This document shows, piece after piece, positions 21,646 through 57,109 of a stretch of DNA of 64,000 nucleotides (positions within the stretch are counted from its first letter, which is position 1; every line of letters starts with the position of its first letter). Source of the stretch: Bacillus sp. FJAT-18017 (GTDB lineage: Bacteria > Bacillota > Bacilli > Bacillales > Cytobacillaceae). The stretch covers positions 3,817,501-3,881,500 of the forward strand of contig NZ_CP012602.1 in the NCBI RefSeq assembly GCF_001278805.1, written 5' to 3'. Below the pieces are notes generated by a model. That model saw only the letters and a list, made by a program, of their open reading frames with translations. It ran no database searches and was not told the DNA's origin. The translations under genes were made by a program, and so were the position numbers.

Positions 21646-21687
21646 TTGGATACTGTATTCACTAATTTAAGAGGGAGTTGGAATGTA

Positions 21688-38225: not shown

Positions 38226-38391
38226 CTTATTTATCTTATACGAGTTATAGGTGTCCTTTTTCCTAAAAGAACAAATTTTCTGGGAATTACATACCATTTT
38301 TGTTAATAATCTAGTAAATTATTTGTTATTTCGACTTTATTCCCATAAAATTGGTTACGTTCACAATCTTACTCTAGGAGGAGGAAACGTA

Positions 38392-38802
38392 ATGAAGAAA
38401 TTTATGGTTTCATTTTTGTCGTTTGCTTTCTTGTTGGTGGGTTATTCGAATGCAGCTTTTGCTGAAGCGGACAGAGATTGTGGTGAATTTTCTAGTAACG
38501 AGGAAGTTATGAGCTTCTGGCATTCAAACGGGTACAGTGCAACTAATGACCCTCATGACTTAGACAGGGATAATGACGGGCTGCCATGTGAGGTTTCTCA
38601 ATCCGAATATGATAATTTTGTAGCAACACAAACTTCAAGCAATGATGATAATTCCAATGACACTTCAGGTTCAACAGATGCCGCTGCTGAAGGCGAAGCA
38701 TTGCCAGAAACAGCTTCCAATTCCATCACTATGGTTGGGCTAGGGGCAGGATTAGCCTTACTTGGCTATCTTCTAGTTTTCCGTAAAAAGCATACAAGCT
38801 AA
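38392..38802 (+). CDS. Excalibur-domain surface protein with class D sortase signal (LPETA)
   Basis: A protein of 136 residues from ATG 38392 behind GGAGGAAACGT. Signal peptide to about residue 24 (AFA-E). The Excalibur calcium-binding motif is DLDRDNDGLPCE (57-67) with a second Cys at 30. A Ser/Asp/Asn-rich linker (80-100) leads to the sorting signal LPETA (104-108), a hydrophobic helix and an RKK tail. LPxTA is the class D sortase recognition type, and such a sortase is encoded 65 nt downstream, so this is the probable substrate. The calcium-binding domain may bind a nuclease or the wall; no enzyme activity is expected. Confidence 0.9.
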   Translation: MKKFMVSFLSFAFLLVGYSNAAFAEADRDCGEFSSNEEVMSFWHSNGYSATNDPHDLDRDNDGLPCEVSQSEYDNFVATQTSSNDDNSNDTSGSTDAAAEGEALPETASNSITMVGLGAGLALLGYLLVFRKKHTS

Positions 38803-38821
38803 GGTTCGCATGCAACAAAGG

Positions 38822-38851
38822 AAAAACGGCAAAATCTCATTGCCGTTTTTC
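38822..38851 (+). terminator. Terminator between surface-protein and sortase genes
   Basis: AAAAACGGCAA pairs with TTGCCGTTTTT around AATCTCA. It ends immediately before the sortase ribosome site, so sortase expression would need read-through or its own start, giving more substrate than enzyme. Confidence 0.75.
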
Positions 38852-38867
38852 CAATGAGGTGACTTTA

Positions 38868-39518
38868 ATGAGTAGGGTTCTACTAGGATACATTCTCATC
38901 ATAACTGGAGTTTTATTGGGTTCTTATCATTTTTTCGAATGGCACATAGGCCGGTCAGCCGCTGAGGAAATGACAACAGAAGAGCTTTCCGCTATAAAAC
39001 GGGAAACTGCACCTCCCCTGAACTTAAAGGCTGAAGAAGAGGTTATCCCGGATACTATGAATATGAAGCCAAAGGCCAGCGGACCTAATGCAACTCCAGA
39101 ATCGGCTGCCAATTTTTCGAAAGGTGAAAAGGTCGCTTATCTGATGATTCCAAAACTTAATCGGAAATATTCAGTGTACTGGGGAACGGATGAAAGAACT
39201 TTAAAAAAGGGAGTTGGCATGTTTTCCAGCAAACTAACCACCCCGCCTGATGGTGGTGGACATACAGTTTTAAGCGGCCACAGGGACACTGTTTTTTACA
39301 GGCTGGATGACTTAAAGGATGGAGATCTGTTGACTATTTCTTTTAACAACTCTATCTATACGTACAAAATAAACAAGATTTTCATCACCGATCCCGATGA
39401 TCGGAGCGTCATTGTAAAAAAAGACACCCCAACCCTTACATTGACAACATGTTACCCCTTTAACTATGTTGGCAGTGCTCCCGAACGATATATAATCCAG
39501 GCTGAACTGCTTAACTAA
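38868..39518 (+). CDS. srtD: Class D sortase
   Basis: A protein of 216 residues from ATG 38868 behind GAGGTGAC. N-terminal membrane anchor (about 3-22), then the sortase beta barrel with the catalytic triad His138 (SGHRDT), Cys195 (TLTTCYPF) and Arg207 (APERYI). The FYRLDDLKDGD spacing and the TLTTC sequence fit class D. It transfers the LPxTA protein encoded just upstream onto peptidoglycan. In B. subtilis SrtD acts with YhcR and YfkN; here the partner is a small Excalibur protein. The hairpin copy 2 follows the gene. Confidence 0.92.
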   Translation: MSRVLLGYILIITGVLLGSYHFFEWHIGRSAAEEMTTEELSAIKRETAPPLNLKAEEEVIPDTMNMKPKASGPNATPESAANFSKGEKVAYLMIPKLNRKYSVYWGTDERTLKKGVGMFSSKLTTPPDGGGHTVLSGHRDTVFYRLDDLKDGDLLTISFNNSIYTYKINKIFITDPDDRSVIVKKDTPTLTLTTCYPFNYVGSAPERYIIQAELLN

Positions 39519-39644: not shown

Positions 39645-40445
39645 TTAGCTCATAACTGCCCATTTCATCCCAATAAAAATTGGCGGAAAATAGGCTGGGG
39701 TAACCCAATTATATGATCCATCGTCCTGAAGCTGGCCAATCTGTATTTCCTTGTCTTCATCTAGACGTATTGCCCACTTGTCGCTGACCACTGTGGCATT
39801 TTGGTCTCGGACTAACTCGATAGCCTCATCAAAGGTATATGTAAGTGCGGATGAATCGTCAGGTAGTGAATTCTGCATGCTAAGCTTTTGATGTTCTTCA
39901 GAATCCCATACCTCTATGAAATCAAAACCTTTAAGCCCTGACTGTAATACCCGGTCTCTAAACCGGTCCGAGACAAAAACAGGAGAATTGATTAGAAACT
40001 TTTCTTCGTGATCAACAATTTTAAAAATATCCTGTCCTTCTGCAATTTCCGCTAAAAAAGCATACTTCTTATAAGTCAAGATTTGATTATCCGGCAGCCT
40101 AGTTGCTTCGGATTGTTCTCCATCAATACAATCAAGGACATTCAACACATTAACGGCATAGTACTTTTCATTTTCTGTTGTCATAAGTGGAAGTAACTCT
40201 GCCTTATCGGTCAAAAGACCCGACAACACTTCAACAGCTTTTTCACTTAAGATGGGGACTGATAAAAGTCCTGAGGGAAAATCACTCTTTTTCCCTTTTT
40301 TATAGATTCGGACCTGAGGTGTTTCCCAAATATCTTCCATAGGTTTTCCACGAAAGTTTTTACTAAATAACTTTCTTACTTGGTCAGTTGTACTATTAAA
40401 AACTTCATACTTTTCTATAAAGCTATTCAATTGCCAGATTTTCAA
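39645..40445 (-). CDS. Putative immunity protein (Imm11/DUF1629-like) with extra C-terminal domain
   Basis: A protein of 266 residues. The first 195 residues resemble the Imm11 (DUF1629) immunity family: KIWQLNSF start, PSGLLSVPILSEKAVEVL, YYAVNVLNVLDCID, FVSDRFRDRVLQSGLKGFDFIEVW. The last 65 residues (TFDEAIELVRDQNATVV, then WVTPAYFPPIFIGMKW) form a separate small domain that recalls DUF2829. It lies 76 nt downstream of the toxin gene on the same strand, the normal position for immunity to the AHH nuclease. Cytoplasmic, no signal peptide. Assignment by pattern, not search. Confidence 0.75.
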   Translation of the reverse strand: MKIWQLNSFIEKYEVFNSTTDQVRKLFSKNFRGKPMEDIWETPQVRIYKKGKKSDFPSGLLSVPILSEKAVEVLSGLLTDKAELLPLMTTENEKYYAVNVLNVLDCIDGEQSEATRLPDNQILTYKKYAFLAEIAEGQDIFKIVDHEEKFLINSPVFVSDRFRDRVLQSGLKGFDFIEVWDSEEHQKLSMQNSLPDDSSALTYTFDEAIELVRDQNATVVSDKWAIRLDEDKEIQIGQLQDDGSYNWVTPAYFPPIFIGMKWAVMS

Positions 40446-40521
40446 TTGATTCTCCTCCCTTACATTTTAAACCCCTTTTACCGGATACTATCATAACTTC
40501 CTAGTAAAAGGGGCAGTAAAT

Positions 40522-43500
40522 TTATTTAAAACGATGAAGAAGTATTTCTCCTGTTAAAAGCTGCTTCCTGATAACATCCAAAGTTCCCTCTAGAGCAGCA
40601 GCAATCTCCTCTTTTGTTTTACCTTCATTTCGCCTTACCGTGTTGTCCAAAAGATTCCTTACATGGTCAAAATAGGAATTTAAATGTCTGCCATTATGTG
40701 TGGCAATATACATACCACCATCCCAATCAGGAAAGCTATAATGTGAACTTTTTGGTATATGTGGGAGCCATACACCATTTGTTGGGGAATTTATATCAAT
40801 TCCATAATCTGTTAAGATGTCTCTTGCCTCTTTAGCAGCATCATATTGTGCACCTTCAGGCACGATATGATGTGCCTGCCAATTCGTAATGTCCCCATTT
40901 ATTTCTGGTGGATCAATTCCCACTTTTCTCAGAGATTCTCCCAATCTAGTAGAAGGAATACCAGAAGAATGTAATTCTTTTGTCTGCCCTATTACTTTAC
41001 TTGTATAAAATCCTGGATAGTAACAACTTACATTATGGACAAGAATCCCTACATCGGAAATATAATAGGTGTGGAAATCTGCAACACTGAAGTTATAAAC
41101 CTTATTTTTTCCCTGTTTTATTTCGATCGATTCAATTGGAAGCTGATTCCCGCTACTCGTTTCAACAAAATCTCCCACTCTGAGATCGCCGGCATTAACC
41201 CACCCTTTACCGTTAACCCAGAATGGATGATCTGCAGTTGTGCTTATGGTTTCATTTCCTATTACTAAATCATAAATTTCATCAGCTTCGTTTTCGAATA
41301 CCATATCAACAGGCTTATAAGTAATTTCGCCAGTTTCTATATTCTTGGATAAAACAAAGTCTCCAACTCTAATATCTTCAATAGATTTTGTTCCACTGTT
41401 TGTTTTTATCTGGGTACCCGAGGTAAAACAGTTACATGAAAGTTTCCAAATCTGAAGATAACTATTAAGATCATCAGAATTGGTAATCCCCAGGCCATCC
41501 AGATGAGAAGGCTTAAACCCAAGCTCAGTCAACTTAGCCATATCTTCTGGTACGAACCCTCGATTAAGCGCATTAACTAGTGCCCTAGCTTCAGTTCCAT
41601 TGGTAACCCAGTATTTTGCATAATCATCAGGCCGGATGTTCTTCTCCGCCAATTTAACTGCATCATCAAGGTGAATGCCGTTATCAAGAATCCTGCTGAT
41701 CTGGCTTGGATTCAGGCCAAGATCAATAAGCTTTTGCAGATTCTCCAATCCCTCGACGCCCTCGGTTTTTCCGATGCGCTCGATAATATCTTTGCTCACC
41801 CCTGAATCCGTCAGTTGTTTAACAAGGATTTCAACCCGCGGAAGGCTGTCAATCCCAGATTTTTTTACTACCTCATTGACGAAATCCTTGGAGAATTGAT
41901 TAGCCAGCCTGTCAGCCGCTGCCCGATTTGCCATTCTTGAAGCGATGGCATTGTAAATATCATCGATTGCACTCTTTATTCCCGGGAAAAACTTGACGAG
42001 CAGGCTGCCACCAAGTGCAGCTACGATACTAAGGATTGCTTGCGTAATAATTGCATCGCCTACAGATGTATCACCCAAGATATAATATTGATACATAAGA
42101 TTTAGCAGTTCAACCAGGAAGTATATTGCCAGGATAGCGAGCACCAATCCTAAGATTCCGCCGAGAATCGTGCCTGATGCCAGCAAGGAAATTGCTGAAA
42201 ACAGCGCGATGAAGCTGTCAATCAAGGCGACTAATGAAGCGATGTCCACAATCATGCTTGTCGATCCGCCTGCTGTTCCGCCACTGATCATATAGCCGGC
42301 CGAGCCGCTTTTCGGATCCATCGCGATATAGCCGGTTCCGTGCCAGTCATAATACTGGATTTCCTCTTCTGGAATAGTCACGATGCGGCCTTGGTTCACC
42401 GAATTGGTAATGTCATTCTTGACGGTGCTGCTTACCTTTAATTTTGGCAGGACTTTACTTATGTTTTGTTTCGTTACGGTGTAAACCGGAATGCCCCGCT
42501 TGTTGGCTTCCTCCAGCACCTTTATGGTTGATACGGAAGGGAGTCCGAGGAACTGTTCGTAAATGCCATGTTCCATCGCTGATTCCAGGGAACCTGTTGC
42601 AAGCATGAACGATAGTTCGTCCTGTTTCTTGCCTGTTTTGCTGACGACGGAAGCGATGTTCCGATCGACATCGATATACATGCCCCCAGGCGCTATCTTT
42701 GCAGGAGCCATGAACATATAGCCGACATTCAGCTGATAGCCGGTCATTGCTCCGCTCAGCAGCCGGTTTGCTGAAACGTCATATTGCTGTGAAATGAGCT
42801 GTCTAGCAACATCGAGCTGTCCAAAGTATGATTTTACAACCCCGTTTAAAATTTCTCCGAGCGCCTCATCTGTATACATCGTATCTGTGTTAACTTTGTC
42901 TTTCAGCGCTTCTACATTTGTTTTAATCTCATTCAGTTCGCCAGAGGCAATTTTTCCAAAATCCAGTCCGACTGCGTAGAATGCACCAGCAGTTACAGGG
43001 TTTTTCACTTCTTCTTCACCCATTCCCGGGGCGCTGAAGCTCATGACAAATTCCTGGGTGTAGGCGAGCCCGACCGGCTTGCCCTCTGCTACGGTATTTC
43101 CATCCACTTTTAATAGCGGAGTCACTTCAACCATGTAGGCTGGAGTCTTGAAAATACCACCATATTCAGAAATGATGTTGGCGTCCTCTTCGGTGGCAGG
43201 CGCCCATGAGAGTGTGATTCTTTTTCCGTACAGGTCCACTGCCTTCGCTCTATGCTTGAAAGCATCCTCACCTGAAAAGTTGAATCCAAACGGACTTCCG
43301 CCGCGGATGCTGAAGCTGACCCACTCGTTCATTTCATCCGGCAGCGAAGTTAATTCCTTGGTGATGGCAACCGTTTTATAAGGAAGTGTTAGTGGAAGGA
43401 TCCCGAGCTTTTGCTCCTTTACTTCCCAACCGCCAATTACATCATTCAATTGGGCATTCTCAAGTCCTTGCTCCTTAATATATACCTCAAGCTTGGACAT

Positions 43501-44811
43501 TGCTTCCGAAAGATGGCCTTGGATGGCGGTCATGTCAAGATTGGTAACCGTCCTCGCATCACCTGATTGATCTCCAGTGTTCTGCGCTGCGTCAAGCAGC
43601 ACTTTTTTATTCAATCCAGTCAATTCCTCAAACTTCAGGCCTTCTTTGTAGACGTTTTGCTTGAAGCTTGGATCAAGTGGAACCCAGGCAGCTTCACCTT
43701 TTTGCGCTCCTGCGCCGCGATAGTCTTCATACGGGACTTCCGCTTCCACCCACGTATGCTCCATTTGGACAGCCATGATTTTCCCCTGCCCATGGACAGC
43801 CCTAAGCGGAATTCCGAGCGCTCCAAGTGTCTGAATTGCCTGTTGCGGGTTGGTGACACCGACCCAGTTTTTCACCTGTTCAATCGGAATCTCTACCGTC
43901 CCGGTTACATAACGTGCAGGTATTCCTTTATAACGAAGCAGCGAGATTAAGAGCGAAGCCTGGTCAACATCATTCCCGGCCAATTGCTGAAGAGTTCCAG
44001 TTGCGCCTTTTCGTGAACCGAGGTACGGTTCGAATTTCACCTCGTTCCTGACATAGTCATAAAGCGACAGGGCGGATCCATCAAGGGAATCAGCCAATTT
44101 TTTGATGTCATCGGTTGCTTTTGTTTCAGCAGTTTCCGCTAGATCCTCCGGTGTCTGGGCAAGGTTCTGGCTTTCTTCAGAGCCCAGGTATGCCGGGGTG
44201 ACTTCGTTTTCAGTTGCCAGTTCGTCCGCCTTTAGCTCCATGTCCCGGTTTGGCAGCGTATTGCCTGTCGGGAAATGCGGGGCCTCAGGTGATAGCTGTT
44301 GCTGGAGTGCACCGAGCTTTTCTTTTACCTTCTTAAACTCAGAGTCTTTTAAGCTCTTGCCACCTATCATGGACTCCAGCTCTGCAAGCTCACTCTTAAC
44401 ATCCTCAAGCTTCTTGTTAAAATCAGCTTGATACGCTTCGAGCCGTTCAATTGCTTTAGGATACTTTTTAGCTTTTTCTTTTTGCTTGCTGAACTCTTTT
44501 TTGATATCAGCCTCTGATGACTCGATTAATTTTTTTGTATCTTTTACGGCTGATTGTAACAACTTGATGTTTTTCTTCTCTAGGTTTTCGTCCATTTCCC
44601 CAAAGGTTTCGGTCATACCAGCGGACAATTTTTCAAGCTCCGTTTTCGGAAGGTTTGATGCAGCCTGGGCATTAACTGCCCCAAGCTGCAAAAACTTATC
44701 CTTCGCCTGATAGGTCATGACGACATTCATGGTCGGGAACCCGAATGAGAAGTAGACACTGAAAAGCAGGATGATGGATATGAATTTTATCCTTGTTTTT
44801 ATTGATTTCAT
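40522..44811 (-). CDS. Polymorphic toxin: TGase-like, HINT and AHH nuclease domains
   Basis: A protein of 1429 residues. Signal/anchor about 8-30; coiled coil 55-175; transglutaminase-like domain about 240-385 with His352 (EHTWVEA) and Asp380 (VPLDPS) but Asp281 where the catalytic Cys belongs; a beta-rich region; a hydrophobic block with two or three membrane segments about 853-945; helical repeats about 980-1120; a HINT domain from Cys1128 (CFTSGTQIKT) to HN at 1259-1260; and a C-terminal AHH nuclease with the QAHHIVPEG motif (His1314, His1315) followed by HNGRH. AHH domains are HNH-type DNases in toxins. HINT probably releases the toxin tip. The ATG overlaps the upstream stop (ATGA). Confidence 0.9.
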   Translation of the reverse strand: MKSIKTRIKFISIILLFSVYFSFGFPTMNVVMTYQAKDKFLQLGAVNAQAASNLPKTELEKLSAGMTETFGEMDENLEKKNIKLLQSAVKDTKKLIESSEADIKKEFSKQKEKAKKYPKAIERLEAYQADFNKKLEDVKSELAELESMIGGKSLKDSEFKKVKEKLGALQQQLSPEAPHFPTGNTLPNRDMELKADELATENEVTPAYLGSEESQNLAQTPEDLAETAETKATDDIKKLADSLDGSALSLYDYVRNEVKFEPYLGSRKGATGTLQQLAGNDVDQASLLISLLRYKGIPARYVTGTVEIPIEQVKNWVGVTNPQQAIQTLGALGIPLRAVHGQGKIMAVQMEHTWVEAEVPYEDYRGAGAQKGEAAWVPLDPSFKQNVYKEGLKFEELTGLNKKVLLDAAQNTGDQSGDARTVTNLDMTAIQGHLSEAMSKLEVYIKEQGLENAQLNDVIGGWEVKEQKLGILPLTLPYKTVAITKELTSLPDEMNEWVSFSIRGGSPFGFNFSGEDAFKHRAKAVDLYGKRITLSWAPATEEDANIISEYGGIFKTPAYMVEVTPLLKVDGNTVAEGKPVGLAYTQEFVMSFSAPGMGEEEVKNPVTAGAFYAVGLDFGKIASGELNEIKTNVEALKDKVNTDTMYTDEALGEILNGVVKSYFGQLDVARQLISQQYDVSANRLLSGAMTGYQLNVGYMFMAPAKIAPGGMYIDVDRNIASVVSKTGKKQDELSFMLATGSLESAMEHGIYEQFLGLPSVSTIKVLEEANKRGIPVYTVTKQNISKVLPKLKVSSTVKNDITNSVNQGRIVTIPEEEIQYYDWHGTGYIAMDPKSGSAGYMISGGTAGGSTSMIVDIASLVALIDSFIALFSAISLLASGTILGGILGLVLAILAIYFLVELLNLMYQYYILGDTSVGDAIITQAILSIVAALGGSLLVKFFPGIKSAIDDIYNAIASRMANRAAADRLANQFSKDFVNEVVKKSGIDSLPRVEILVKQLTDSGVSKDIIERIGKTEGVEGLENLQKLIDLGLNPSQISRILDNGIHLDDAVKLAEKNIRPDDYAKYWVTNGTEARALVNALNRGFVPEDMAKLTELGFKPSHLDGLGITNSDDLNSYLQIWKLSCNCFTSGTQIKTNSGTKSIEDIRVGDFVLSKNIETGEITYKPVDMVFENEADEIYDLVIGNETISTTADHPFWVNGKGWVNAGDLRVGDFVETSSGNQLPIESIEIKQGKNKVYNFSVADFHTYYISDVGILVHNVSCYYPGFYTSKVIGQTKELHSSGIPSTRLGESLRKVGIDPPEINGDITNWQAHHIVPEGAQYDAAKEARDILTDYGIDINSPTNGVWLPHIPKSSHYSFPDWDGGMYIATHNGRHLNSYFDHVRNLLDNTVRRNEGKTKEEIAAALEGTLDVIRKQLLTGEILLHRFK

Positions 44812-47800
44812 GACCCTTTTCTACCTCCGGTATACCAGTTCGATTGGTATAGGCTCAGCACTCGCTCCAGTTTAAACCTAAGCGCGTCCTGGTCGCTTTC
44901 ATTTGCCAAAACATGAAGCCCCTTTTTGACTTCTTCAATTGCCAGTTCCAGTTCTTCTTTTGTTTTTGGCTGATACACTAAATAGCCTCTTAGCGTATTG
45001 GACAGGTTTTTCAGAAGTCCTTTGCCTTTGGTACTCGAGATGCTGGCGGATTTCAGGGAGCCAACTGCCTCAAGCAGAAGGGTTTCTTCACTCTGGGTGA
45101 ATTCGAGCTGAAATTCCTTGCTTTCAAAATTGAAGAATTCCCCTTGATCCCAAAGACCATTTTCGGTAACCAGTGAATAGTGCCCGCTCACCATTGGGTT
45201 GGCAATCAGATAATGAAGGGTTATTTCCTCATCTGGTTCCATTGTTTTTTTCCAATTATAATTGTTTTCTTGAGCCGTGAAGTCCATCGGATCTATCACG
45301 CGGATCCCTTCAGGGACGACTTCAGTTAACTGGACGTCAATCGGGCCGCCATTTGATTTCACCTTTATTTCAACCATTTGTACGTCTCCAGGATTGGAGG
45401 ATGGTTCCTTCGGTGTGATTTGTTTAATCATGGCGCCTTCAAGCTGTTCAGATGTCAATCCCTGTAGTTGGCGGCTGTCAAAGCCTACATGCACGGCCAC
45501 TCCGTTCCCGTATTCATTTGCTACGATTGCAGGGTGGCTGCCAAGGGTTGCCCACGTCTCACCAGTAGTCAGGTCGTATTTTTGCAAAGCTCCCCCAAAA
45601 GTGCCAGTAAAGCTTGAAAACTCCTTAGAGGAAAGACTGCTTTCCGTGATTGTCTGAGTTCCATTCAGTTTGGCGCCAAAAGGATTAAAGGTCTGGAAGT
45701 TTGCCAGATTGGCATTGGCCGTTGCAATCAAACGATGGCCATTATGGATTTTTGCAAGCAGTTCCTGATCGTCAAGCCCTGTCAGCGGCTGTTGTGTATC
45801 ACTCACAAGGTACACATTATATTTGTTTGACCTGAGTTCTTTCATGAAGTCCTGTGCAGTTGTCACCACAGTGGCATAATCCGATTCCTTCACCAATTTT
45901 TCAATCCAAGTGTTAGCTTCAAGCTTTTCGGTCCAGACAAGGATTCTGGATCCCTCTTTTACCAATTTGCTGACTTCAATTGAGACATCCACTGAGAACG
46001 AACCGCTATCGAGCGCAATAATTTCGCCATTCTGCAGGGTTGTTCTTAAAACAACAAGGTAGTTCCCGATTTTTAAGCCCTTTGTATTGTAGGAGTAGCT
46101 TTTTGTAACGGTTCCATTAATGGCCAGTTCGGTCTGGTCTTCAAACGTTTTGACCACTTGTCCGGTTTCCGGCTGGATGACCAGTACTTCTGTTTTGGCA
46201 TCCTTTACGGCGCTGTTTCCTGTATTCGTGACTGTATAGTTCAGGTCAACAGGTTTACCGCTAATGACCTTCTTGTCTCCCACTGTCAGTGTGCCTTCCA
46301 AGCCATAGCCGAGGTCAGCCGTTGATAGGATTGTCATTACTGTTTCATCAGATGATACTAGGACATCTCCGTCCCATACCTCCGTTTTCACCGTATACTT
46401 GCCTGGTAGTGCCTGGCCGCTCTTCCACGTAAGGGAGCGATCCGCACCCTCTTGTGCCGACAGGTAAGGCAGTATGATTTCGTCTTCGAATTGGGACTGG
46501 TTATCAGAATTTAAGACGGTTGTTTTGATTGCAAGATTTGCAAAGTCTTTATTGGTTGCACCGTTTTCAATATGATGCTGGATGACCACGTCCTGTCCCG
46601 ACTGATACTCAGCCTTGTCTGTAGTGGTCTCGGCCTCCACGCTTCCCTGGGCAACAATCGTAAAAGGCGCAGTTGCCTCGGAAACCTTTTGGCCATCGTT
46701 CTGAACAAGAGTTACCTTGACAGCATAGTCGCCTGTATATGTATTACCAGTATTCCAGACGAGGTCTTGGGCATGGATTCCTTTTGCAGCTAGCTGGTCA
46801 ATCGGATACGTTCCGACTTCTGACACCACACCGCCGCTATTGTCCACAATCTCAACAACTGCTTGTAAATCAGCAGCCTGATCAGAGTTGTTTTCAACTT
46901 CAATATGAATTTCAGCGTTTTCGTTTGCGGTAAAGTCGGAATCATTTAACTGAATCCGCGTTTGCAGCGAATCGTTTACCTTCACTTGCATGTTCGGCAA
47001 TGGAACCGCAATTTGCTCACCGCTTTTTGCCGTATAAGTCAGTTTTGTGTTAGTTGTGATGTCCTCTGTTTCTCCCGGCGAGAAGGAAGTTCCCTTCAAG
47101 GCAAGTGTGATTGACTGCGTCTGGTTCATGACAATGATGTCATAATTCCATTCAACTGTTTTTGTTCCATTCGCGTTATTAACAACCCTCGAAGGTGCAG
47201 GAGTGGACTTTGTCTGATCGACCGTTATGCCACTTGGCAGGGTTGTGGTAAGGACGACATTTTTGCCGGCAAGATTAAAGACCTCTCCGCCGATTCCATT
47301 CATCATTTCCTCAAGCTCCTCGGCAGTTGGGCTAAAGCGGTACGTTCCCTCAGTAGCGATTGCAATTTGCTCCATCAGATATTTATCCACACCGTTACCA
47401 AGGCCGATGGTATGGATGGTAATCCCTTCCCCGTTTGCTGCTTTTGCTTGAGTTAAAGCAGAACTTCTTGAAGATTGCCCATCCGATAATAAGACAATGA
47501 CTTTCTCCCGTTCACTATTGCTTTCTTTCTTGAATAAGCTTCTTGCTGAGTTAATGCCAGAATCAATTGATGTACCTCCTGAGGCATACGCTTTATCAGC
47601 TGCTTTTTTCAAAAGATTGATATCCGGTGTGAGGTTCTGAATGACAGTTGCCCAGTAATCGAAAAAGATGACTCCTCCACGATCACCCGGCTGGATTAGC
47701 TCCATCAGCTTCTTCGTCGCTTCCTTTGTCTGTGTGACAGATCCATCCATACTGCCGGATGTATCAATGACAAAAATCATATCCAGCGGTTTTCTTTCCG

Positions 47801-49475
47801 GTTCGGTAGGAGCACCAAGCCCTTTTAAGACAAACTCGGCATTCACTGTATCCGAACCCGGATTTACAATTTCCTTATTTAAGGCTTGCTCTGCGTCAAT
47901 TCTTGTTGGAGGTGGTGGAGGCAGCACTTCGAATTTCTTTTCCGTCTCGGTTACAGCCTTGCCATCCTTGTAAACATATCCCTTTATCGTATACGTCGTC
48001 TCTTGTCCAACTTCCGGTGTGAACTTGAGCATATTTGTATTGATGTTCGGTTCGGCTGGGGTAGTGGAAACTACTTTTTCTTGAGAAGCAACCAGTTCGC
48101 CAGATTTTGAATATACTTCAATTTTCTGTGTTGCCTCTCCCTTCACGTTGCTGGAATGGAAGAGTGAGAGTTGGACATTTACTTCCTTGGATTGTCCGAC
48201 AGTCGTCTTTTCTGGTGAGAGCAGGATTGTCGCACTATCAACTCTATTGCTTGGAACGATTTCGAAAGACTTCTGGCTGGTAGCCGCGACTTTCCCGGTT
48301 TGTTTATTTTTTATTTGAACAACTGCAGTATAATCGCCCGGTGTGCGGTTTTGGGTATTCCAGATTAAACCTCCCTCCGCTTGGACGGTTTCGTACTTCC
48401 CGGCTGGTGTTTTAATAAAGGCCTGTACCTGTAATTGCTCAGTAGAAGATTCATAGATTGGGTTTATTTCCAGCATTTCATATGCTTCAAACCGGTCGCT
48501 CTTAACCTTTTCTGATTGAGTTACCTTGTATAATTCAATTGCGGAAATAGCGGCACTCGTTGTCTCGAGGTGAGAATTGAGTGCTTTGAGTGCCCATAAC
48601 GTAATGTATGGATCATTCGCCCAGCTTCCGTTTTCCTCCTGTAGCTGAAGGATTGTATCATGAACAAAGCCTACCGGCTGGAGCCCATTCGTTTCCAAAA
48701 CGGCTTGATACGCCATGAGGGTTTTTAGTAATGTACCTTCTTCAAGTCCCCATGTTTGGTCTTCCTGCTGCAATGATAGGATAAAGTCACCGGCTTGAAT
48801 CAAAGAGGACAATACTTCACTAGATGTTGAACCAGTTTTAAGGATAAATTCATTTAATAAGAGGATAATCTGTGCTGTAACAAATATGCTGTCTTGCTGG
48901 CGGTCGTTGTAGCCCCAGCTCCCATTTTCCTTTTGCTGCTTAATCAGATACGCAATTCCTTTTTGAATGATGTCTTTGTTGGAAGGATCTTTTTCCAACA
49001 GTGCGCCTAGGACTAAGGCTGTGTCAAAAACATCGCTGTCATAACCTTCAGCAAGGCCCCATCCCCCATCCGTGCTTTGGGCACCAAAAAAAGTTTGAAC
49101 TTCCTTGCTGCCTTTTTGGGATAGGGTTCTCGCCATAAAATCAAAATTAGCGGTTTCCTGATTCTTTAACCAATCTGATGATTTTAGAAGTGAGCCATCA
49201 TTTGGGAGGCTCTCAGTCAGGTACTTTGTGATTTCCGAGGTATTTCTCATCTTTTCGGCAAAATGAGTTCCCCAGCTGCCATCCTCGTTTTGGCTTCCAG
49301 TGAGCCAGCTTTGCCCAGTCAAGATACTTTGCTCAATCTCTGCCTTTGTAGCAGTTGGAACGGACTTCTCCGCCGATCCATTTGCCGGCAATACAGAAAA
49401 AACCGTAAAGATCATGACAAGTGTCAAAATCAACAATTTTCTGCAGCCCAAATGGTTAGAGTGTAACCATTTCAT
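44808..49475 (-). CDS. Giant secreted protein: prenyltransferase-like repeats, vWA and CARDB-like domains
   Basis: A protein of 1555 residues from ATG 49475 behind AAAGGAGG; an upstream in-frame ATG at 49508 would place that site inside the gene. Signal peptide to about residue 37. Residues 45-330 hold five or six squalene-cyclase/prenyltransferase-like repeats, each with a DGSWG, NGSWG or GGWG turn. Ig-like/CARDB domains follow, then a von Willebrand A domain (about 560-760) with MIDAS DTSGS at Asp571, Ser573 and Ser575, then further CARDB-like repeats and a glutamine-amidotransferase-like strand region near 1200. No anchor motif. Four-nt overlap with the toxin gene indicates a shared complex or export partner. 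No function is established. Confidence 0.85.
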   Translation of the reverse strand: MKWLHSNHLGCRKLLILTLVMIFTVFSVLPANGSAEKSVPTATKAEIEQSILTGQSWLTGSQNEDGSWGTHFAEKMRNTSEITKYLTESLPNDGSLLKSSDWLKNQETANFDFMARTLSQKGSKEVQTFFGAQSTDGGWGLAEGYDSDVFDTALVLGALLEKDPSNKDIIQKGIAYLIKQQKENGSWGYNDRQQDSIFVTAQIILLLNEFILKTGSTSSEVLSSLIQAGDFILSLQQEDQTWGLEEGTLLKTLMAYQAVLETNGLQPVGFVHDTILQLQEENGSWANDPYITLWALKALNSHLETTSAAISAIELYKVTQSEKVKSDRFEAYEMLEINPIYESSTEQLQVQAFIKTPAGKYETVQAEGGLIWNTQNRTPGDYTAVVQIKNKQTGKVAATSQKSFEIVPSNRVDSATILLSPEKTTVGQSKEVNVQLSLFHSSNVKGEATQKIEVYSKSGELVASQEKVVSTTPAEPNINTNMLKFTPEVGQETTYTIKGYVYKDGKAVTETEKKFEVLPPPPPTRIDAEQALNKEIVNPGSDTVNAEFVLKGLGAPTEPERKPLDMIFVIDTSGSMDGSVTQTKEATKKLMELIQPGDRGGVIFFDYWATVIQNLTPDINLLKKAADKAYASGGTSIDSGINSARSLFKKESNSEREKVIVLLSDGQSSRSSALTQAKAANGEGITIHTIGLGNGVDKYLMEQIAIATEGTYRFSPTAEELEEMMNGIGGEVFNLAGKNVVLTTTLPSGITVDQTKSTPAPSRVVNNANGTKTVEWNYDIIVMNQTQSITLALKGTSFSPGETEDITTNTKLTYTAKSGEQIAVPLPNMQVKVNDSLQTRIQLNDSDFTANENAEIHIEVENNSDQAADLQAVVEIVDNSGGVVSEVGTYPIDQLAAKGIHAQDLVWNTGNTYTGDYAVKVTLVQNDGQKVSEATAPFTIVAQGSVEAETTTDKAEYQSGQDVVIQHHIENGATNKDFANLAIKTTVLNSDNQSQFEDEIILPYLSAQEGADRSLTWKSGQALPGKYTVKTEVWDGDVLVSSDETVMTILSTADLGYGLEGTLTVGDKKVISGKPVDLNYTVTNTGNSAVKDAKTEVLVIQPETGQVVKTFEDQTELAINGTVTKSYSYNTKGLKIGNYLVVLRTTLQNGEIIALDSGSFSVDVSIEVSKLVKEGSRILVWTEKLEANTWIEKLVKESDYATVVTTAQDFMKELRSNKYNVYLVSDTQQPLTGLDDQELLAKIHNGHRLIATANANLANFQTFNPFGAKLNGTQTITESSLSSKEFSSFTGTFGGALQKYDLTTGETWATLGSHPAIVANEYGNGVAVHVGFDSRQLQGLTSEQLEGAMIKQITPKEPSSNPGDVQMVEIKVKSNGGPIDVQLTEVVPEGIRVIDPMDFTAQENNYNWKKTMEPDEEITLHYLIANPMVSGHYSLVTENGLWDQGEFFNFESKEFQLEFTQSEETLLLEAVGSLKSASISSTKGKGLLKNLSNTLRGYLVYQPKTKEELELAIEEVKKGLHVLANESDQDALRFKLERVLSLYQSNWYTGGRKGS

Positions 49476-49580
49476 TCGCTTTCCTCCTTTAAAAAATATA
49501 AACAACATATTAATAGTATCAATTAGAACTGGTAATTATTGTCGAAACATGCCATTATTGGTAATTTTTATGTAAATAAA

Positions 49581-51421: not shown

Positions 51422-52792
51422 TCACCTTACAGTACCTGACACCGGAGAAACAAGAGCACCTTCCCCACGTTCACTACTCTCATCCACAACAACTTCAGTA
51501 AAGTGGTCGGGAGCGAATTTGGCTTTAATTTTCATAGCGGCATAGTAAACAATGACGGCGGCGATAAGGGATTGAACCGCTGGCAAGCCCATTGGATTAA
51601 CGTATTGAGTATAGTATCCTACTAAAGTACTGGCGACGAGTGCGATTGTTGCCATCCAGTTCCAGCCTTTGTTGTCTACCCACTGCTGCTTTCTGATAAG
51701 GAAGAAATCTGCCATCATGATGCCTCCAATGGCTGGATAGATAAGTGCAGTCATGTAAAGGAAGTCCATGAAATAATCCAGAATTCCTGCCAGCGCGATT
51801 ACAATTGAAACAATCGTACCAGCAAATGTGAGAAGGGCGCGGCCTTTGTTGGAGTTCACGTTCAACATATTAGCCAGGGCGAGCCCCATGCTATAGTTAT
51901 TCACCAATTGGCTTGTCCATGTTGCGAGCCATAAAATAATGAAGCCCCATATTGGGAAACCAAGATTCATCATGACATTTACGATATCCGCATCGCCGAC
52001 TCCAATCGACATGATTGCCCCAACATAGAACAGGGGGAAACCGACTCCTACTATGCCAATCGGGATCAGGATATTATCTCTTACCTTTGGCTTTGCGTAT
52101 CGGGTATAATCAGCAGAAATTACCCACTGAGAAACATTAATACCAATAACCAGGCTGATAGCAGCAAGGAATGTCATTTGCGGCTCGGGATTCCAGGATG
52201 AAATTTTTTCCCAGCCGGTATTCCGCAGAGCATAATAAATTCCACCCGCTACCAATAATAAGCCTGCTGGCACAGCCAGGTAATCCGTCCATTTCATTGA
52301 AGAATAACCAATGATGGAGGGAAGTGCGAACAGAAGGCCCGCAATTATGGTGACAAGGGCCCATAGTCCCCATTGCGTTTCATAATCAATTCCGAACATA
52401 GCTGAAATTGCATTACCTGCAACAGCTGTTTGCAGTGCCCACCAGCCCATTGAAACAATGAAAATGGTCATACCAACGATTAACCTTGCCTGGGTTGAGC
52501 CGAAGCTTGTCCTGGCAATAACTGACGAAGATCGGCCGGTTTTAGCCCCAATATAGCCAGATAACGCGTTGCCAATCCATTGAAAAACAAACAAGGCAAT
52601 GGCCAAAATCCAAAAAAGTTCTCCCAATCCGAAGCTCGCGATTAATGCAGCTCCAACCATAAGAACTGGGATGGTAAACTCTAGCCCTCCAAAAATAACT
52701 GCGGGAGAAATCCAGTGCTGTCTTTCACTTAAAGGAACCGGCGATAACGCCTCGTCCTTGCCCCCACTATTCTTTATTGATACGTCTTCCAT
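51422..52792 (-). CDS. NCS1-family permease (cytosine/purine/hydantoin type)
   Basis: A protein of 456 residues with about twelve membrane helices. NCS1 features include the N-terminal PVPLSERQHW, a GLGELFWILAIALF helix, SGYIGAKTGRSSSVIARTSFG (helix 1-2 region) and SQWVISADYTRYAKP. It is closest to CodB/PucI-type transporters for cytosine, purines, allantoin or hydantoins. It is the last gene of the hyu operon, so a hydantoin-like or cyclic amide substrate is likely. Hairpin copy 5 lies between it and the cupin gene. Start ATG 52792 with AGGAGC. Confidence 0.9.
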   Translation of the reverse strand: MEDVSIKNSGGKDEALSPVPLSERQHWISPAVIFGGLEFTIPVLMVGAALIASFGLGELFWILAIALFVFQWIGNALSGYIGAKTGRSSSVIARTSFGSTQARLIVGMTIFIVSMGWWALQTAVAGNAISAMFGIDYETQWGLWALVTIIAGLLFALPSIIGYSSMKWTDYLAVPAGLLLVAGGIYYALRNTGWEKISSWNPEPQMTFLAAISLVIGINVSQWVISADYTRYAKPKVRDNILIPIGIVGVGFPLFYVGAIMSIGVGDADIVNVMMNLGFPIWGFIILWLATWTSQLVNNYSMGLALANMLNVNSNKGRALLTFAGTIVSIVIALAGILDYFMDFLYMTALIYPAIGGIMMADFFLIRKQQWVDNKGWNWMATIALVASTLVGYYTQYVNPMGLPAVQSLIAAVIVYYAAMKIKAKFAPDHFTEVVVDESSERGEGALVSPVSGTVR

Positions 52793-52880
52793 CCACTTCA
52801 GCTCCTTCTATTGAAATATTCTGTATTTCTTAATAAAGATCCTATTGAAGTCTGATTTTCTTGGTTGTGCGCTTTTGGGT

Positions 52881-52928
52881 AGATGAGAACGGTCCCCTCT
52901 CCACTTTTGGCAGAGGAGAACGTCTCCA
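52881..52928. repeat. GGGACGGTTC-type hairpin, copy 5 (degenerate)
   Basis: GAGAACGGTCCCCTCT and AGAGGAGAACGTCTCC pair imperfectly. It sits between the cupin and permease genes and may attenuate permease expression. Confidence 0.6.
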
Positions 52929-52941
52929 GTTTATCTTCTTT

Positions 52942-53271
52942 CTAGCCGACTAGTACCCAGACGATTTCGCAGTCTTCGGTGCCGTCATTGTAGGCGATAT
53001 GCTCCTGTCCTGCGGGGATGAATGTGGCTTCCCCTGCAGACACCCGATAGGTTTTCCCGATTGTTTCAGTGACGATTGAGCCCTTTAGAATAATTGAATA
53101 CTCGTTTTCGGCATGATTGGATACCCCGGCCAAAGGGACCCTCTTTCCAGGAGAAATGGTCACTGTTCCCATCCTGAAATCCCCTGATATTCCCTTTTTT
53201 CCAAAGATGGTCTTTAGCGGGACAGCGGTACCAGGATCCGCATTTATATTTTTTAAAGTAAGGACATCCAC
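52942..53271 (-). CDS. Small cupin-domain protein
   Basis: A single cupin of 109 residues: GTVTISPGKRVPL, NHAENEYSIILKG, and GEATFIPAGQEHIAYNDG form the two cupin motifs, with His/Glu ligands in the second. Start is GTG 53271, one base after the hyuB stop, with GGGAGG within the hyuB end, so the genes are coupled. It probably binds a small ligand or metal and may be an auxiliary enzyme of the operon. Confidence 0.88.
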   Translation of the reverse strand: MDVLTLKNINADPGTAVPLKTIFGKKGISGDFRMGTVTISPGKRVPLAGVSNHAENEYSIILKGSIVTETIGKTYRVSAGEATFIPAGQEHIAYNDGTEDCEIVWVLVG

Positions 53272-53272
53272 T

Positions 53273-55024
53273 TTAGACTGCCTCCCTTTGCTTGCGCTGT
53301 TCAGTTACCCCTTCAATTTCATAGGTTTGAGGGTTTACTTTCACTCCAAAGTCGTTTTCGGCCTGGGAAACGGAAATATATCCGTTTTTGACATCACTTG
53401 CCACCTTTTCAGCCGGTCGCTTTAACGGGTCACCAAAACCGCCTCCAGTTGCAGTGACAAGTTTGACAACATCGCCCTTATTCAATGGATATCTTGCATA
53501 TATTCCGTATGGGCCATCAACTTCGCCATTTGCTTTTTCAACGTAGAATTCATTGGTTGAACCGTCCTTGCCATCGCTCATTCCCCATGGAGCGAATTTA
53601 TGGCGGCCGAATGTTACCGAAACCTGCTGATTGTCGCTCATCGCCCTATAGGAACGCACGACTCCCGATCCCCCAATATACTCACCTGCGCCGGTTCCAT
53701 CGGCCCGAAGGCTGTACTCATCGACCATAACACCGTACCTTGTTTCAGCAACCTCAACTGGAACATTATACGTTTCACCATCACCGATACAGAATTTTCC
53801 TCTTGCACCATCCTGACCCTCAGAAGCACCCCATCCTCCGACTGATGGCTCAACAATAAGGAATGGTTCATTTGAATCCTGATGCAAACCGGACAACACA
53901 ACTGAACAAACCGAGAGAAGATGCCCTGCAGAAAGCCGGTGCGGGATGTGTGGGGCTAACGCTTTCCATATCAGGTCCGCGCCAGCCTGCATGCTTTCCC
54001 AATAGATCGATACAGGTGCAGGCCGTTCTGCTGACAGGACTGATGCCTTATCCGTTATGACTTCCAGCAGGCGGAACACTCCGTCATTTGCATCCTGGGA
54101 AGGATTTGTAATCGCCATAAAGATGGCTCGCACAGCCGATACGAGTGCAGTATAAGAGCAATTGATCGGCCCCATGACCTGCGGATGGCTTCCTCTGAAG
54201 TCTGCAACAAACTTCTCATCTGTGATTGTTACCTTAACTTTTACGAGGAAAGGACCATTGCCGAAACCGTCATCATCGATGTAGTTTTCAGCCTCAAATG
54301 TTCCCTTCGGCAGCTTTTTAAGCTCTTGACGGGCAAGCTGCTCGCCATGATCGAGCAAATAGTGGACAGAGGAAAGGACAAGCTCTTTCCCATGCTTGCT
54401 GCATAATTCCTTCACCCGTTTTTCGCCTGTCTTCAATGCGGCAACCTGTGCCCACATATCCCCCAACGACAGATCCGGGAATCGGACATTTGCCTCGATG
54501 ATATCAACAATCGCCTGGTTGATTTGTCCTTCACTAAACAGCTTTACACATGGGAATTGCAGCCCCTCCTGGAAGATATCGGTCGCATCGTTGCTGAACG
54601 ATCCAGGATCTTTGCCGCCTACCTCTGTCCAGTGGGCTTTATTAGCAGAAAATGCAACGATTTCACCTTCATAAAAAATCGGCATGACAAGCCCGACGTC
54701 AGAAAGGTGGGATCCCCCGCCGCCATAGGAATCATTGATGATGACGATATCCCCTTCTTTCAGCTTGCCGTCTCCGAACTTTTTCAATGTCTGCTTGACC
54801 ATGTCAGAGAGCATTCCTATAAAACCAGTAACACCATTCCCTTGAGTCAGCAATTGCCCTTTGGCATCTGTAAGGCCGCTTGCATAATCGAGGACCTCAT
54901 AGATAATCGGGCTCATCGATGTTTTTGCAAGGGCAATAAACATCTCGTCGCCAATTGCTATTAAGGAATCTTTGACAATCTCGAGTGTAAATGGGTCTAC
55001 TTTCGTCCGAACAACTTGAGTCAT
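53273..55024 (-). CDS. Hydantoinase B / oxoprolinase family protein
   Basis: A protein of 583 residues from ATG 55024, one base after the hyuA stop with GGGGGTGG at the right distance. Hydantoinase_B family: DPFTLEIVKDSL at the N-terminus, YASGLTDAKGQLL, SYGGGGSHLSDVGL, GGWGASEGQDGARGKF. Together with HyuA it forms an ATP-dependent cyclic-amide opening or acetophenone/acetone carboxylase-type enzyme. No sign of truncation. Start at 55045 is rejected because it would run into the hyuA end without a ribosome site. Confidence 0.92.
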   Translation of the reverse strand: MTQVVRTKVDPFTLEIVKDSLIAIGDEMFIALAKTSMSPIIYEVLDYASGLTDAKGQLLTQGNGVTGFIGMLSDMVKQTLKKFGDGKLKEGDIVIINDSYGGGGSHLSDVGLVMPIFYEGEIVAFSANKAHWTEVGGKDPGSFSNDATDIFQEGLQFPCVKLFSEGQINQAIVDIIEANVRFPDLSLGDMWAQVAALKTGEKRVKELCSKHGKELVLSSVHYLLDHGEQLARQELKKLPKGTFEAENYIDDDGFGNGPFLVKVKVTITDEKFVADFRGSHPQVMGPINCSYTALVSAVRAIFMAITNPSQDANDGVFRLLEVITDKASVLSAERPAPVSIYWESMQAGADLIWKALAPHIPHRLSAGHLLSVCSVVLSGLHQDSNEPFLIVEPSVGGWGASEGQDGARGKFCIGDGETYNVPVEVAETRYGVMVDEYSLRADGTGAGEYIGGSGVVRSYRAMSDNQQVSVTFGRHKFAPWGMSDGKDGSTNEFYVEKANGEVDGPYGIYARYPLNKGDVVKLVTATGGGFGDPLKRPAEKVASDVKNGYISVSQAENDFGVKVNPQTYEIEGVTEQRKQREAV

Positions 55025-55025
55025 C

Positions 55026-57071
55026 TCATTCCACCCCCGTATCAATGATTAAATTACCGTACTCATCCACCAGCAGGGATTGTCCAGGATAAATCACTGT
55101 CGATGCAGAGGGCTCCTCGACAATCGCCGGACCGGAAACAGAGACATTTTTTCCAAGAAGCTGGCGGTGATAGACATTAGTATCAATCCATCCCTTGTCT
55201 TCAAAGTAAACCGGGCGTGTTTCCTTAAAAGCAACACCCGCATCGCTTGCAATCTTGTCCAGCTTTTTAAGCTGAGGTTTCACGACTTTCCCAAAAGCAG
55301 TGACATGAAGATTAACGATTTCAGTAGGAGTGCCCTCTAGCTTGAATGTATAGTTCTTTTCATGAAGGTCGCCAAATCGCTGTTCAACTTCGGAAAGTGT
55401 ATTTTCATTCCATTCACCAGCAGGAACCGGAACCTTAACTGTATGCTCCTGGCCTAAATAGCGGATATCCGCAAATCTAGTAAACAATACCTTTTCCTCA
55501 GAAATTCCTTCCTCCTTAAATTGCTCGAATGCTCCCCTTTCAATAGATGACCACTCGTTGTTTATTTCATCTGGATTAAGCTGGCTGACCCTTCTGATAT
55601 AGGTCTGAATATAATCATGGCGAAGGTCTGTCATCAGCATTCCCCAAGCTGAAAATACAGAGGAAGCGACCGGAACAATTACTTTCTTGACACCTAATTC
55701 TTTGGCAAGAGCAGGGGCATGCATGGATCCGCCGCCGCCAAAAGCAACGAGTGAAAAATCGCCCGGGTTGTGGCCCTTGCGGATGGAAATCAGCTTTAAC
55801 GCATTTAGCATGTTGGAATTCGCAATCCTGATAATCCCCAATGCAGCTTCTTCAACGCTCAATCCGAAATGGTCTGCTACTTTTTCTTTAATGGCTGCTT
55901 TTACTTTTTCCAAATCCACGTGATAATCAAAATTTTCCGGTGAAAGCCTTCCAGTAACCAGGTTCGCATCGGTAGTGGTCGGCTCGGTTCCTCCCTGTCC
56001 ATATGCGACAGGACCAGGAGAAGCACCAGCTGACTGCGGCCCAACTTTAAGCGACCCTGCACCATCTATCCAGGCAATCGATCCGCCGCCATTTCCAATC
56101 TCCACAATATCGACAACCGGTACTTTGATTGGGTAACCGGCATTCCGTTCATTTTTTTCAATAAAATAATCAGTGGAAACCTTTACTTCCCCTTGATTGA
56201 TAAGAGAGCATTTTGCGGTTGTACCGCCAATGTCAAATGCAATGATGTTCTTCTCCCCGATGATTTCACCTAGAACCGCTGCTCCATAAATGCCTGCAAC
56301 AGGCCCTGATTCAACCATATTGATAGGCGTCTGCTTGGCGCTATTAAACGTTGTTGTTCCGCCATTCGATTGCATTATGTAATTCTGGCTATCAGTCTGG
56401 TTTTCTACCAATTTTTCATGAAGGCGATTAACATAAGATGCAGCAATCGGTTTAACATACGAATTAAGAACAGTTGTGCTGGTCCTTTCGTATTCCCTCC
56501 ACTCTTTCGTCACCTCGTGCGAAGCAGTAACAGCAACTTCCGGCCAAATCTCTTTAATCATTTCAACCGTTTCAATCTCATGAACTGGATTTACATAGGA
56601 ATGCAGATAGGCTACCGCAATCGCCTCGACTCCAACATTTTTGAAGTAGGGGATAACCTCTTTCAGTCTTTCCTTATCCAGGGCTGCAATTACTTCACCT
56701 TTATAGTTCAGACGCTCTTCCACTTCCTGGCGCAAATACCGCTCAACAAATGGCACCGGCTTTTGGTAGCGTACATTAAATAAATCCGGGCGATTTCCAC
56801 GGGCAATCTCCAGCACATCCCGGAATCCTTTTGTTGTAATTAATCCCGTCTTTACTCCCTTCCGTTCAGTAAGGGCATTAATAATAACAGTAGTCCCATG
56901 GATAAACGTCTGGATTGAACGCTGGTCAATCCCGCTTTTCTCGATAACATCAATTACACCTTTTTCAAAGTTTGGAGGTGTGGTGTGGCTTTTCGCAACA
57001 CCAATGCTTCCCTCTTCATTGACGTAAACCAGATCGGTAAAAGTTCCGCCAATATCAGTAGCTACCCGCAT
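55026..57071 (-). CDS. Hydantoinase A / oxoprolinase family protein
   Basis: A protein of 681 residues from ATG 57071 behind GAAAGGTGG (the longer frame lacks a site). RVATDIGGTFTDLVYVN is the phosphate-binding loop of the hydantoinase A N-terminal domain; FIHGTTVIINAL and FDIGGTTAKCSLI follow, then the C-terminal AFGGGGSMHAPALAKELG. Substrate candidates are hydantoins, N-methylhydantoin, 5-oxoproline or caprolactam-type lactams; the sequence alone does not decide. It starts 38 nt after the XRE regulator stop. Confidence 0.93.
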   Translation of the reverse strand: MRVATDIGGTFTDLVYVNEEGSIGVAKSHTTPPNFEKGVIDVIEKSGIDQRSIQTFIHGTTVIINALTERKGVKTGLITTKGFRDVLEIARGNRPDLFNVRYQKPVPFVERYLRQEVEERLNYKGEVIAALDKERLKEVIPYFKNVGVEAIAVAYLHSYVNPVHEIETVEMIKEIWPEVAVTASHEVTKEWREYERTSTTVLNSYVKPIAASYVNRLHEKLVENQTDSQNYIMQSNGGTTTFNSAKQTPINMVESGPVAGIYGAAVLGEIIGEKNIIAFDIGGTTAKCSLINQGEVKVSTDYFIEKNERNAGYPIKVPVVDIVEIGNGGGSIAWIDGAGSLKVGPQSAGASPGPVAYGQGGTEPTTTDANLVTGRLSPENFDYHVDLEKVKAAIKEKVADHFGLSVEEAALGIIRIANSNMLNALKLISIRKGHNPGDFSLVAFGGGGSMHAPALAKELGVKKVIVPVASSVFSAWGMLMTDLRHDYIQTYIRRVSQLNPDEINNEWSSIERGAFEQFKEEGISEEKVLFTRFADIRYLGQEHTVKVPVPAGEWNENTLSEVEQRFGDLHEKNYTFKLEGTPTEIVNLHVTAFGKVVKPQLKKLDKIASDAGVAFKETRPVYFEDKGWIDTNVYHRQLLGKNVSVSGPAIVEEPSASTVIYPGQSLLVDEYGNLIIDTGVE

Positions 57072-57109
57072 GATTTTCCACCTTTCTTCAATTGATTTAT
57101 TATAGCCAG

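Follow-up and report, generated by a model that had tools for sequence, protein, structure and literature searches.

In contact-dependent growth inhibition (CDI; CdiA/CdiB), a toxin displayed at the cell surface carries an exchangeable tip and is accompanied by an immunity gene and orphan cassettes. The wall-associated WapA/Rhs toxins of Gram-positives are large secreted RHS-type proteins with a variable tip and an immunity gene, and umbrella toxin particles are built from other subunits and repeats than those described below. To our knowledge, it is poorly understood how large Sec-type polymorphic toxins are presented by Gram-positives and how their tips enter the target cell. Here, we describe a locus on a 64,000-nucleotide stretch of the Bacillus sp. 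FJAT-18017 chromosome (the window; contig NZ_CP012602.1, positions 3,817,501 to 3,881,500), which consists of gene A, coding for a toroid/vWA/Ig-like partner protein, gene B, coding for a predicted polymorphic toxin, and a gene of the Imm11 family. The overall explanation that we favor, with a probability of roughly two in three, is that A and B are the two proteins of a single secreted toxin system. The closest described class is that of the inactive-transglutaminase polymorphic toxins, in which, according to section 19 of Zhang et al. 2012 (PMC3482391), an N-terminal transglutaminase with a lost triad residue is followed by a variable C-terminal toxin, and for which the same section proposed surface anchoring through peptide binding.

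Gene B and its exchangeable tip

Gene B (40522..44811; this and the other features of the locus lie on the minus strand) encodes 1429 amino acids (aa) and is, judged from its sequence, almost certainly a polymorphic toxin. A constant body with exchanged C-terminal tips, a downstream gene that changes with the tip and, in relatives (loci L062 and L066), orphan tip cassettes were all found. In G007, a genome of the same genus, A is 94% identical to that of the window, and B is 89% identical to approximately residue 1120, after which the sequence is unrelated and lacks the HINT domain, and the gene following B is an 88-aa open reading frame (ORF) in place of Imm11. B measures 1276 aa in both G007 and Bacillus sp. 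EB01 (L037). The second exchange concerns L062 and L066, two Lachnospiraceae metagenome-assembled genomes (MAGs) that share an identical 1056-aa A and B cores that are 100% identical to approximately residue 800. The main tip of L062 corresponds to the orphan of L066 (98.4% over 574 aa), and the main tip of L066 to the orphan of L062 (99.7% over 383 aa). Between the two MAGs, tip 1 with its 172-aa neighbor and tip 2 with its 155-aa neighbor trade the main-gene and orphan-cassette positions, each tip keeping its own identical downstream gene. Since the orphan cassettes begin within the core (residues 651 and 691), a repeat is available for recombination. Pieces derived from B also occur in L048, a damaged locus, and in L059 and L080. 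The polymorphic-toxin reading, which had first been made from the letters of the DNA (the sequence-only reading), is thus borne out by the tip exchanges seen within the genus and, at a single locus, between two MAGs. What speaks against it is that the swap between L062 and L066 spans repeats on MAG contigs and may reflect misassembly, and that some relatives have a B with a short tail and no known tip. G007 is a single-contig genome, so its tip exchange does not share the assembly weakness.

The tip of the window B is an AHH nuclease domain (40561..40887; PF14412, E 1.3e-12) with the motif in QAHHIVP at residue 1312, and it is preceded by a HINT autoprocessing domain (41032..41436; PT-HINT, E 4.5e-31; 2lwy_A, E 4.3e-29), which runs from CNC1126-1128 to HN1260, beginning CNCFTSGT at 1126 and terminating with HN at 1259-1260. 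The gene that follows (39645..40445, 266 aa, with a TTG start preceded by AGGGAGG) matches the Imm11 profile with E 9.7e-14 (51.6 bits against a cut-off of 22.1) and is a predicted immunity protein. The HINT domain ending in HN, the C-terminal AHH motif and the adjoining immunity-like gene had all been noticed in the sequence-only reading, for which the lack of a HINT or AHH match was looked for as a refutation, and both domains match. Going by their scores, domain matches of this strength in A, B and the small gene are not a product of chance. An AHH tip with an Imm11-like gene is common to the window and L038 (61% identity for AHH and 57% for Imm11). In the homologue set used first, in which 120 of 257 proteins were listed, 36 of the 120 have a Pfam match that we interpret as a tip of the nuclease, deaminase, tRNase or NADase type, representing 13 families, most of which carry the name that we take their Pfam accession to denote; PF11758, PF01442 and PF00877 (P0116) were kept out of these 36 cytosol-type tips. 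In Zhang et al. 2012 (PMC3482391), Imm11 is listed with Tox-AHH as its partner.

The body of B contains a transglutaminase fold (43669..44085; Pfam Transglut_core, E 2.7e-15; domain start at approximately residue 243), in which Asp281 occupies the position of the catalytic Cys of 3isr, according to a weak alignment. Cys was absent from the catalytic column in the 118 readable of the 120 homologues of the first set and in the 115 readable of the 120 listed (of 687) in a second set, with 3 proteins common to both; because of gaps at this position, 2 of the 120 proteins, and likewise 2 of the 77 loci, dropped out of the first count, and 5 of 120 proteins out of the second. GNDxD[QI]ASLL, one of the two patterns of the locus search, includes the Cys-replaced motif, and the 77 loci described below therefore cannot test Cys loss; neither protein set was selected with this pattern. 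A Cys two residues before the Asp281 position in 4 of 118 and 27 of 115 relatives might argue against a dead transglutaminase, and relatives with an active enzyme may exist outside both sets. A conserved core follows, which extends to GGTAGGS at approximately residue 849 (42265..43668), and comparison of the core beyond the transglutaminase domain with solved structures gave no clear match, from which we do not conclude that the fold is new.

Pairing of A with B

A and B very probably constitute one functional unit. A profile based on 25 B proteins identified 159 relatives in genome contigs, and the best 80 of these 159 stretches yielded 77 loci, found via B. These loci are mostly from Bacillota, and also from Geobacter/Pelobacter, Nitrospirae, Acidobacteriota, Elusimicrobia, Zixibacteria, Chloroflexi, Bacteroidales and others, and many are MAGs. 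In 60 of the 77 loci, B has an A-like ORF within 4.2 kb that shares its strand (46 upstream and 14 downstream), using as seeds 56 ORFs of the same loci that match A at E < 1e-8. The two giant genes, whose separation in most relatives was looked for as a refutation of the sequence-only reading, are therefore mostly found together. Among ORFs of at least 600 aa, 57 of the 72 near B match A relatives, versus 3 of the 22 elsewhere, and the three found elsewhere (L063, L074 and L102) each also have a nearer partner piece. The reverse test used 291 Clostridia genomes, of which 14 were matched by an A profile (A2). The five strongest copies, in 4 genomes and with E < 1e-170, are by their coordinates all beside B, and B was found in 5 of the 291 genomes, namely those four and, as a fragment, G162; eight of the remaining A2 genomes show short toroid matches. 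A second, damaged A-B copy in G328 is also arranged side by side, and, across 43 pairs, the similarities among A proteins follow those among B proteins (Spearman 0.78, 0 of 2000 permutations). Among 101 genomes around the window, that of the window included, full-length A was present in 2, the B body in the same 2, and only the HINT region in a third, so the system is patchy.

A number of observations weigh against such a unit. Among the 17 loci without a partner, L079 and L080 are the only ones with 4 kb or more on each side, and in these two B stands alone despite sufficient sequence. The partner evidence is a fragment of less than 600 aa in 6 of the 60 loci (L041, L045, L048, L071, L078 and L106), the call in L093 depends on a single seed, and in the loci with a giant B (L101, L104, L105, L108 and L113) the whole partner match comes from Ig/CARDB-type regions; Pfam showed RHS among these only for L104, which has a large Ig/CARDB gene upstream. 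The Clostridia set was centered on G101, a genome picked because the pair is present, and A2 includes L042 (G101) and L044, which from the match coordinates is apparently in G192. The toroid and Ig half of A occurs without B in 2 of the 291 genomes (G242 and G307), and the correlation between A and B similarities is confounded by common descent. It could be argued that B is a polymorphic toxin of the ordinary kind and that A, a surface protein, has nothing to do with it beyond sitting in the same operon, considering that two B loci with enough sequence have no A. However, the pairing occurs in distant bacteria and in both gene orders, and persists even in the damaged G328 copy, which makes this explanation highly improbable.

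The partner feature most often found near B is a toroid of squalene-cyclase/prenyltransferase-like repeats (47 of 77 loci). In the window this region (48519..49361; residues ~50-330 in 1566-aa numbering) scores slightly below the Pfam cut-off (SQHop_cyclase_C, 25.5 versus 26.1 bits), but it has five Q-x-x-[DEN]-[GQ]-x-[WF] motifs, and the cut-off is exceeded in two A relatives, L042 (48.5 bits) and L060 (46.5 bits), so that the prenyltransferase-type repeats of the sequence-only reading can be upheld. The same reading had assigned vWA and CARDB domains to the partner. The vWA domain is present (47304..47783; Pfam VWA, E 1.1e-22), and its residues DTSGSM, T and D are presumably MIDAS-like (metal ion-dependent adhesion site), whereas the CARDB match is weak (E 0.022, below cut-off), although the AlphaFold model begins with a beta domain there. 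As defining features of the partner the two domains did not hold up, since direct comparison with the window A placed vWA near B in 10 of 77 loci and the toroid in 47. Further features of A are a glutamine-amidotransferase-like alpha/beta domain (45405..45953) and a C-terminal helical region that ends in SNWYTGGRKGS (44826..45092). A protein search with A returned 10 matches, 3 of them full-length including A itself, and most had only the vWA domain in common, so that relatives were instead sought by locus.

Some variation in arrangement was also seen. The order is B, small gene, A, instead of A, B, in the HINT-bearing loci L050, L052-L054, L056, L070 and L081. In the Geobacter and Nitrospirae records L061 and L063, B ends in NlpC/P60 and A-like parts are split over two genes, and in L063 a gene with a YARHG domain directly follows B.

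Probable surface display, the hydrophobic block and a proposed mechanism

A is probably a display or anchor subunit, since in some relatives A ends in a sortase-like transmembrane (TM) tail, SLH or dockerin domains. Judged by pattern and hydropathy, 12 of 59 A-like ORF ends (fragments of at least 130 aa included) carry a hydrophobic tail resembling a TM segment, and an xTG motif is present in 11 of the 12. L044 has SLH domains in A (E 1.5e-37), L095 and L102 have type I dockerins (E 9.6e-6 and 1.8e-9), and the end of A in L098 looks dockerin-like by eye. The N-terminus of B is lipobox-like by pattern at 11 of 74 loci, and the same holds for 4 of 120 homologues. Pointing the other way, Pfam Gram_pos_anchor gave no match in the 6 that were scanned of the 12 TM-tailed ends (L057, L058, L086, L088, L094 and L097), and the C-terminus of the window A showed no sortase signal, SLH, dockerin or TM end in a Pfam scan and by inspection of the sequence. 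The proposal of the sequence-only reading that A is a dedicated carrier or surface anchor is therefore supported by the anchoring ends of some relatives and not by the window A itself. The latter, with its hydrophobic N-terminus and without any of these ends, would also suit a diffusible two-part toxin in which A locates the target cell by binding a receptor, with the vWA, Ig-like and amidotransferase-like domains acting as adhesin and no anchoring needed in the window lineage; vWA is often an adhesion domain. The several kinds of anchor at the A ends of some relatives, and the scarcity of vWA near B (10 of 77 loci), argue against this, and we consider it unlikely.

In L084, L086-L088, L090, L094, L095, L097, L098 and L102, the B tails are ~165-200 aa long, and A often ends in a TM tail or a dockerin. 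Three of these tails were scanned (L084, L088 and L095) and gave no clear family, and the gene after B lies on the opposite strand in L084, L086, L088 and L095. This long-tail group is possibly a non-toxic branch. The pair might even be primarily a matrix or adhesion pair, made of a dead transglutaminase and a complement-like toroid/Ig frame, to which tips were added later in some lineages, so that what A does would be independent of toxicity. That A is retained beside Ruminococcus-type B proteins, whose ~170-aa tails are of unknown family, that some A relatives bear dockerins and that toroid and Ig relatives stand alone in 2 genomes would fit this, but the AHH tip beside an Imm11-like gene in both the window and its near relative L038, and the joint exchange of tips and neighbor genes, do not, and we regard such an origin as quite unlikely.

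Between core and HINT domain, B has a hydrophobic block (41977..42264; residues 850-945), defined as a 19-residue hydrophobicity of at least 1.6 within 120 residues after the core. At least 100 residues past the core are present in 118 of the 120 listed homologues of the first set, and 116 of these 118 have the block, the two misses being P0087 (1.52) and P0116 (NlpC, 0.98). The block was found in 36 of 36 listed cytosol-type tips versus 4 of 70 NlpC/P60-tipped proteins (Fisher p 3.6e-24, relatedness ignored), and was absent from tails with Amidase_2 (L049), a phospholipase-A2-like (L082) and a CHAT-like domain (L077). Of the 50 non-NlpC proteins in the second set, 6 have tails too short to be scored and 33 of the other 44 have the block, and many of these non-NlpC proteins have a hydrophobic tail of ~100-130 aa that is maybe itself the tip. 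This contrast would be in keeping with a translocation module, but it is confounded with lineage, the NlpC set having come from one Geobacter-type query; within Bacillota it depends on the single amidase-tipped protein without a block (L049), and P0211, whose Pfam match we take to be a wall peptidase, exceeds the threshold (1.68). Whether the predicted block is a translocation module is for us an evenly balanced question. The Geobacter-type B tails of L071 and L074 have YYSGH and NSC motifs and by eye resemble a CHAT/caspase-like protease; among the tails of L071, L074 and L077, a Pfam CHAT match was obtained only for L077 (E 7e-4).

In the two-protein toxin system that we favor, A and B would both be exported by Sec, and A would be retained at the cell surface or in the extracellular matrix, where it docks the dead transglutaminase and core of B. 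Upon contact with a competitor, the hydrophobic block, proposed as a membrane-crossing module, would help the tip cross the target membrane, and HINT would cut after Asn1260, with cleavage rather than splicing expected because the next residue is Val. The released AHH nuclease would then cut nucleic acid, while Imm11 would keep the producer and kin cells from harm. Toxicity, the binding of A to B, processing and translocation are predictions made from the sequence. A broader idea, which we put forward only tentatively and hold to be somewhat doubtful, is that A-B is an undescribed, phylum-spanning delivery platform, in which a surface-anchored toroid/Ig frame holds a dead-transglutaminase toxin as a Gram-positive counterpart of CDI, and the hydrophobic module is present or absent depending on whether the tip acts in the cytosol or on the cell wall.

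Genomic context and comparison with known systems

Gene A (44808..49475) encodes 1555 aa with a signal-peptide-like N-terminus. The first ATG of its ORF is at 49508 (ORF 44808-49508), and the ATG at 49475, which is preceded by a AAAGGAGG site, gives the 1555-aa product. The 4-nt overlap of the two giant genes that had been reported is directly visible as ATGA at 44808..44811, where the stop of A overlaps the start of B, from which we infer translational coupling. A hairpin between B and the Imm11 gene (40471..40514; fold z -2.25, with 3 of 200 shuffles equally good) is a possible attenuator or terminator. Promoter and terminator counts (20 versus 16.3 and 14 versus 10.4) were close to the shuffled expectation and were not used. 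The B search of the host genome, a single 5.27-Mb contig, returned B alone. The nearest named relatives in the B homologue and locus searches were Bacillus sp. EB01 and Neobacillus sp. Marseille-Q6967, and judged from these the producer would be Gram-positive.

A class D (LPxTATN-type) sortase lies beside the small gene of an Excalibur/LPXTA-type surface protein at 38251-39518. This block was set aside as a part of the system, since the window A has no sorting signal and the matching DNA sits on the opposite side of A-B in EB01, which means that either the operon or the block has moved. A match to the sortase was found in 8 of 8 genomes of the genus, with close ones in G007 (95%) and G005 (76%). 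Elsewhere in the window, 21646-27012 encodes a 1788-aa subtilase with PKD, MAM and Ig-like domains, and at 51422-57137 a gene of the cytosine/purine permease family lies near large same-strand genes, of which the 590-aa and 703-aa products presumably resemble hydantoinase-type proteins.

If the reading is true, a conserved pair in which the display subunit is separable and the hydrophobic module matches the tip would make the question of presentation and entry directly testable, and would account for many large proteins that are now named merely transglutaminase-domain or VWA-domain protein. Like CDI, the system has an exchangeable tip, an immunity gene and, in relatives, orphan cassettes; unlike CDI, its producer is by inference Gram-positive, and Pfam (E up to 0.1) showed neither a CDI-type two-partner-secretion domain nor a beta-barrel in A or B. 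It differs from WapA/Rhs in that the window B has no RHS match and that there is a separate partner protein A. The similarity of B to 8w20, which we take to be an umbrella toxin particle, is confined to the HINT region (E 1.3e-14). In 2009, transglutaminase modules were described in dockerin proteins of Ruminococcus flavefaciens (PMC2721979), and the text available from that report does not mention the A-B pairing. A literature search, with bioRxiv preprints outside its scope and subscription literature sparsely covered, gave among the papers listed no recognizable description of a toroid/Ig partner paired with B. The inactive-transglutaminase toxins of Zhang et al. 2012 (PMC3482391, as far as section 19 describes them) resemble the window B in the loss of the triad residue (Asp281, weak alignment) and in the variable tip. 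In that class the transglutaminase directly follows the signal peptide and is itself followed by RHS repeats, whereas the domain of the window B starts at ~243 and no RHS match was found in it, RHS occurring in the relative L104. The window B furthermore has a ~500-aa core, a hydrophobic block and the adjoining gene A, while section 19 mentions no partner gene. Polymorphic and inactive-transglutaminase toxins are known from this source, and what appears to be new is the pairing with a toroid/Ig partner.

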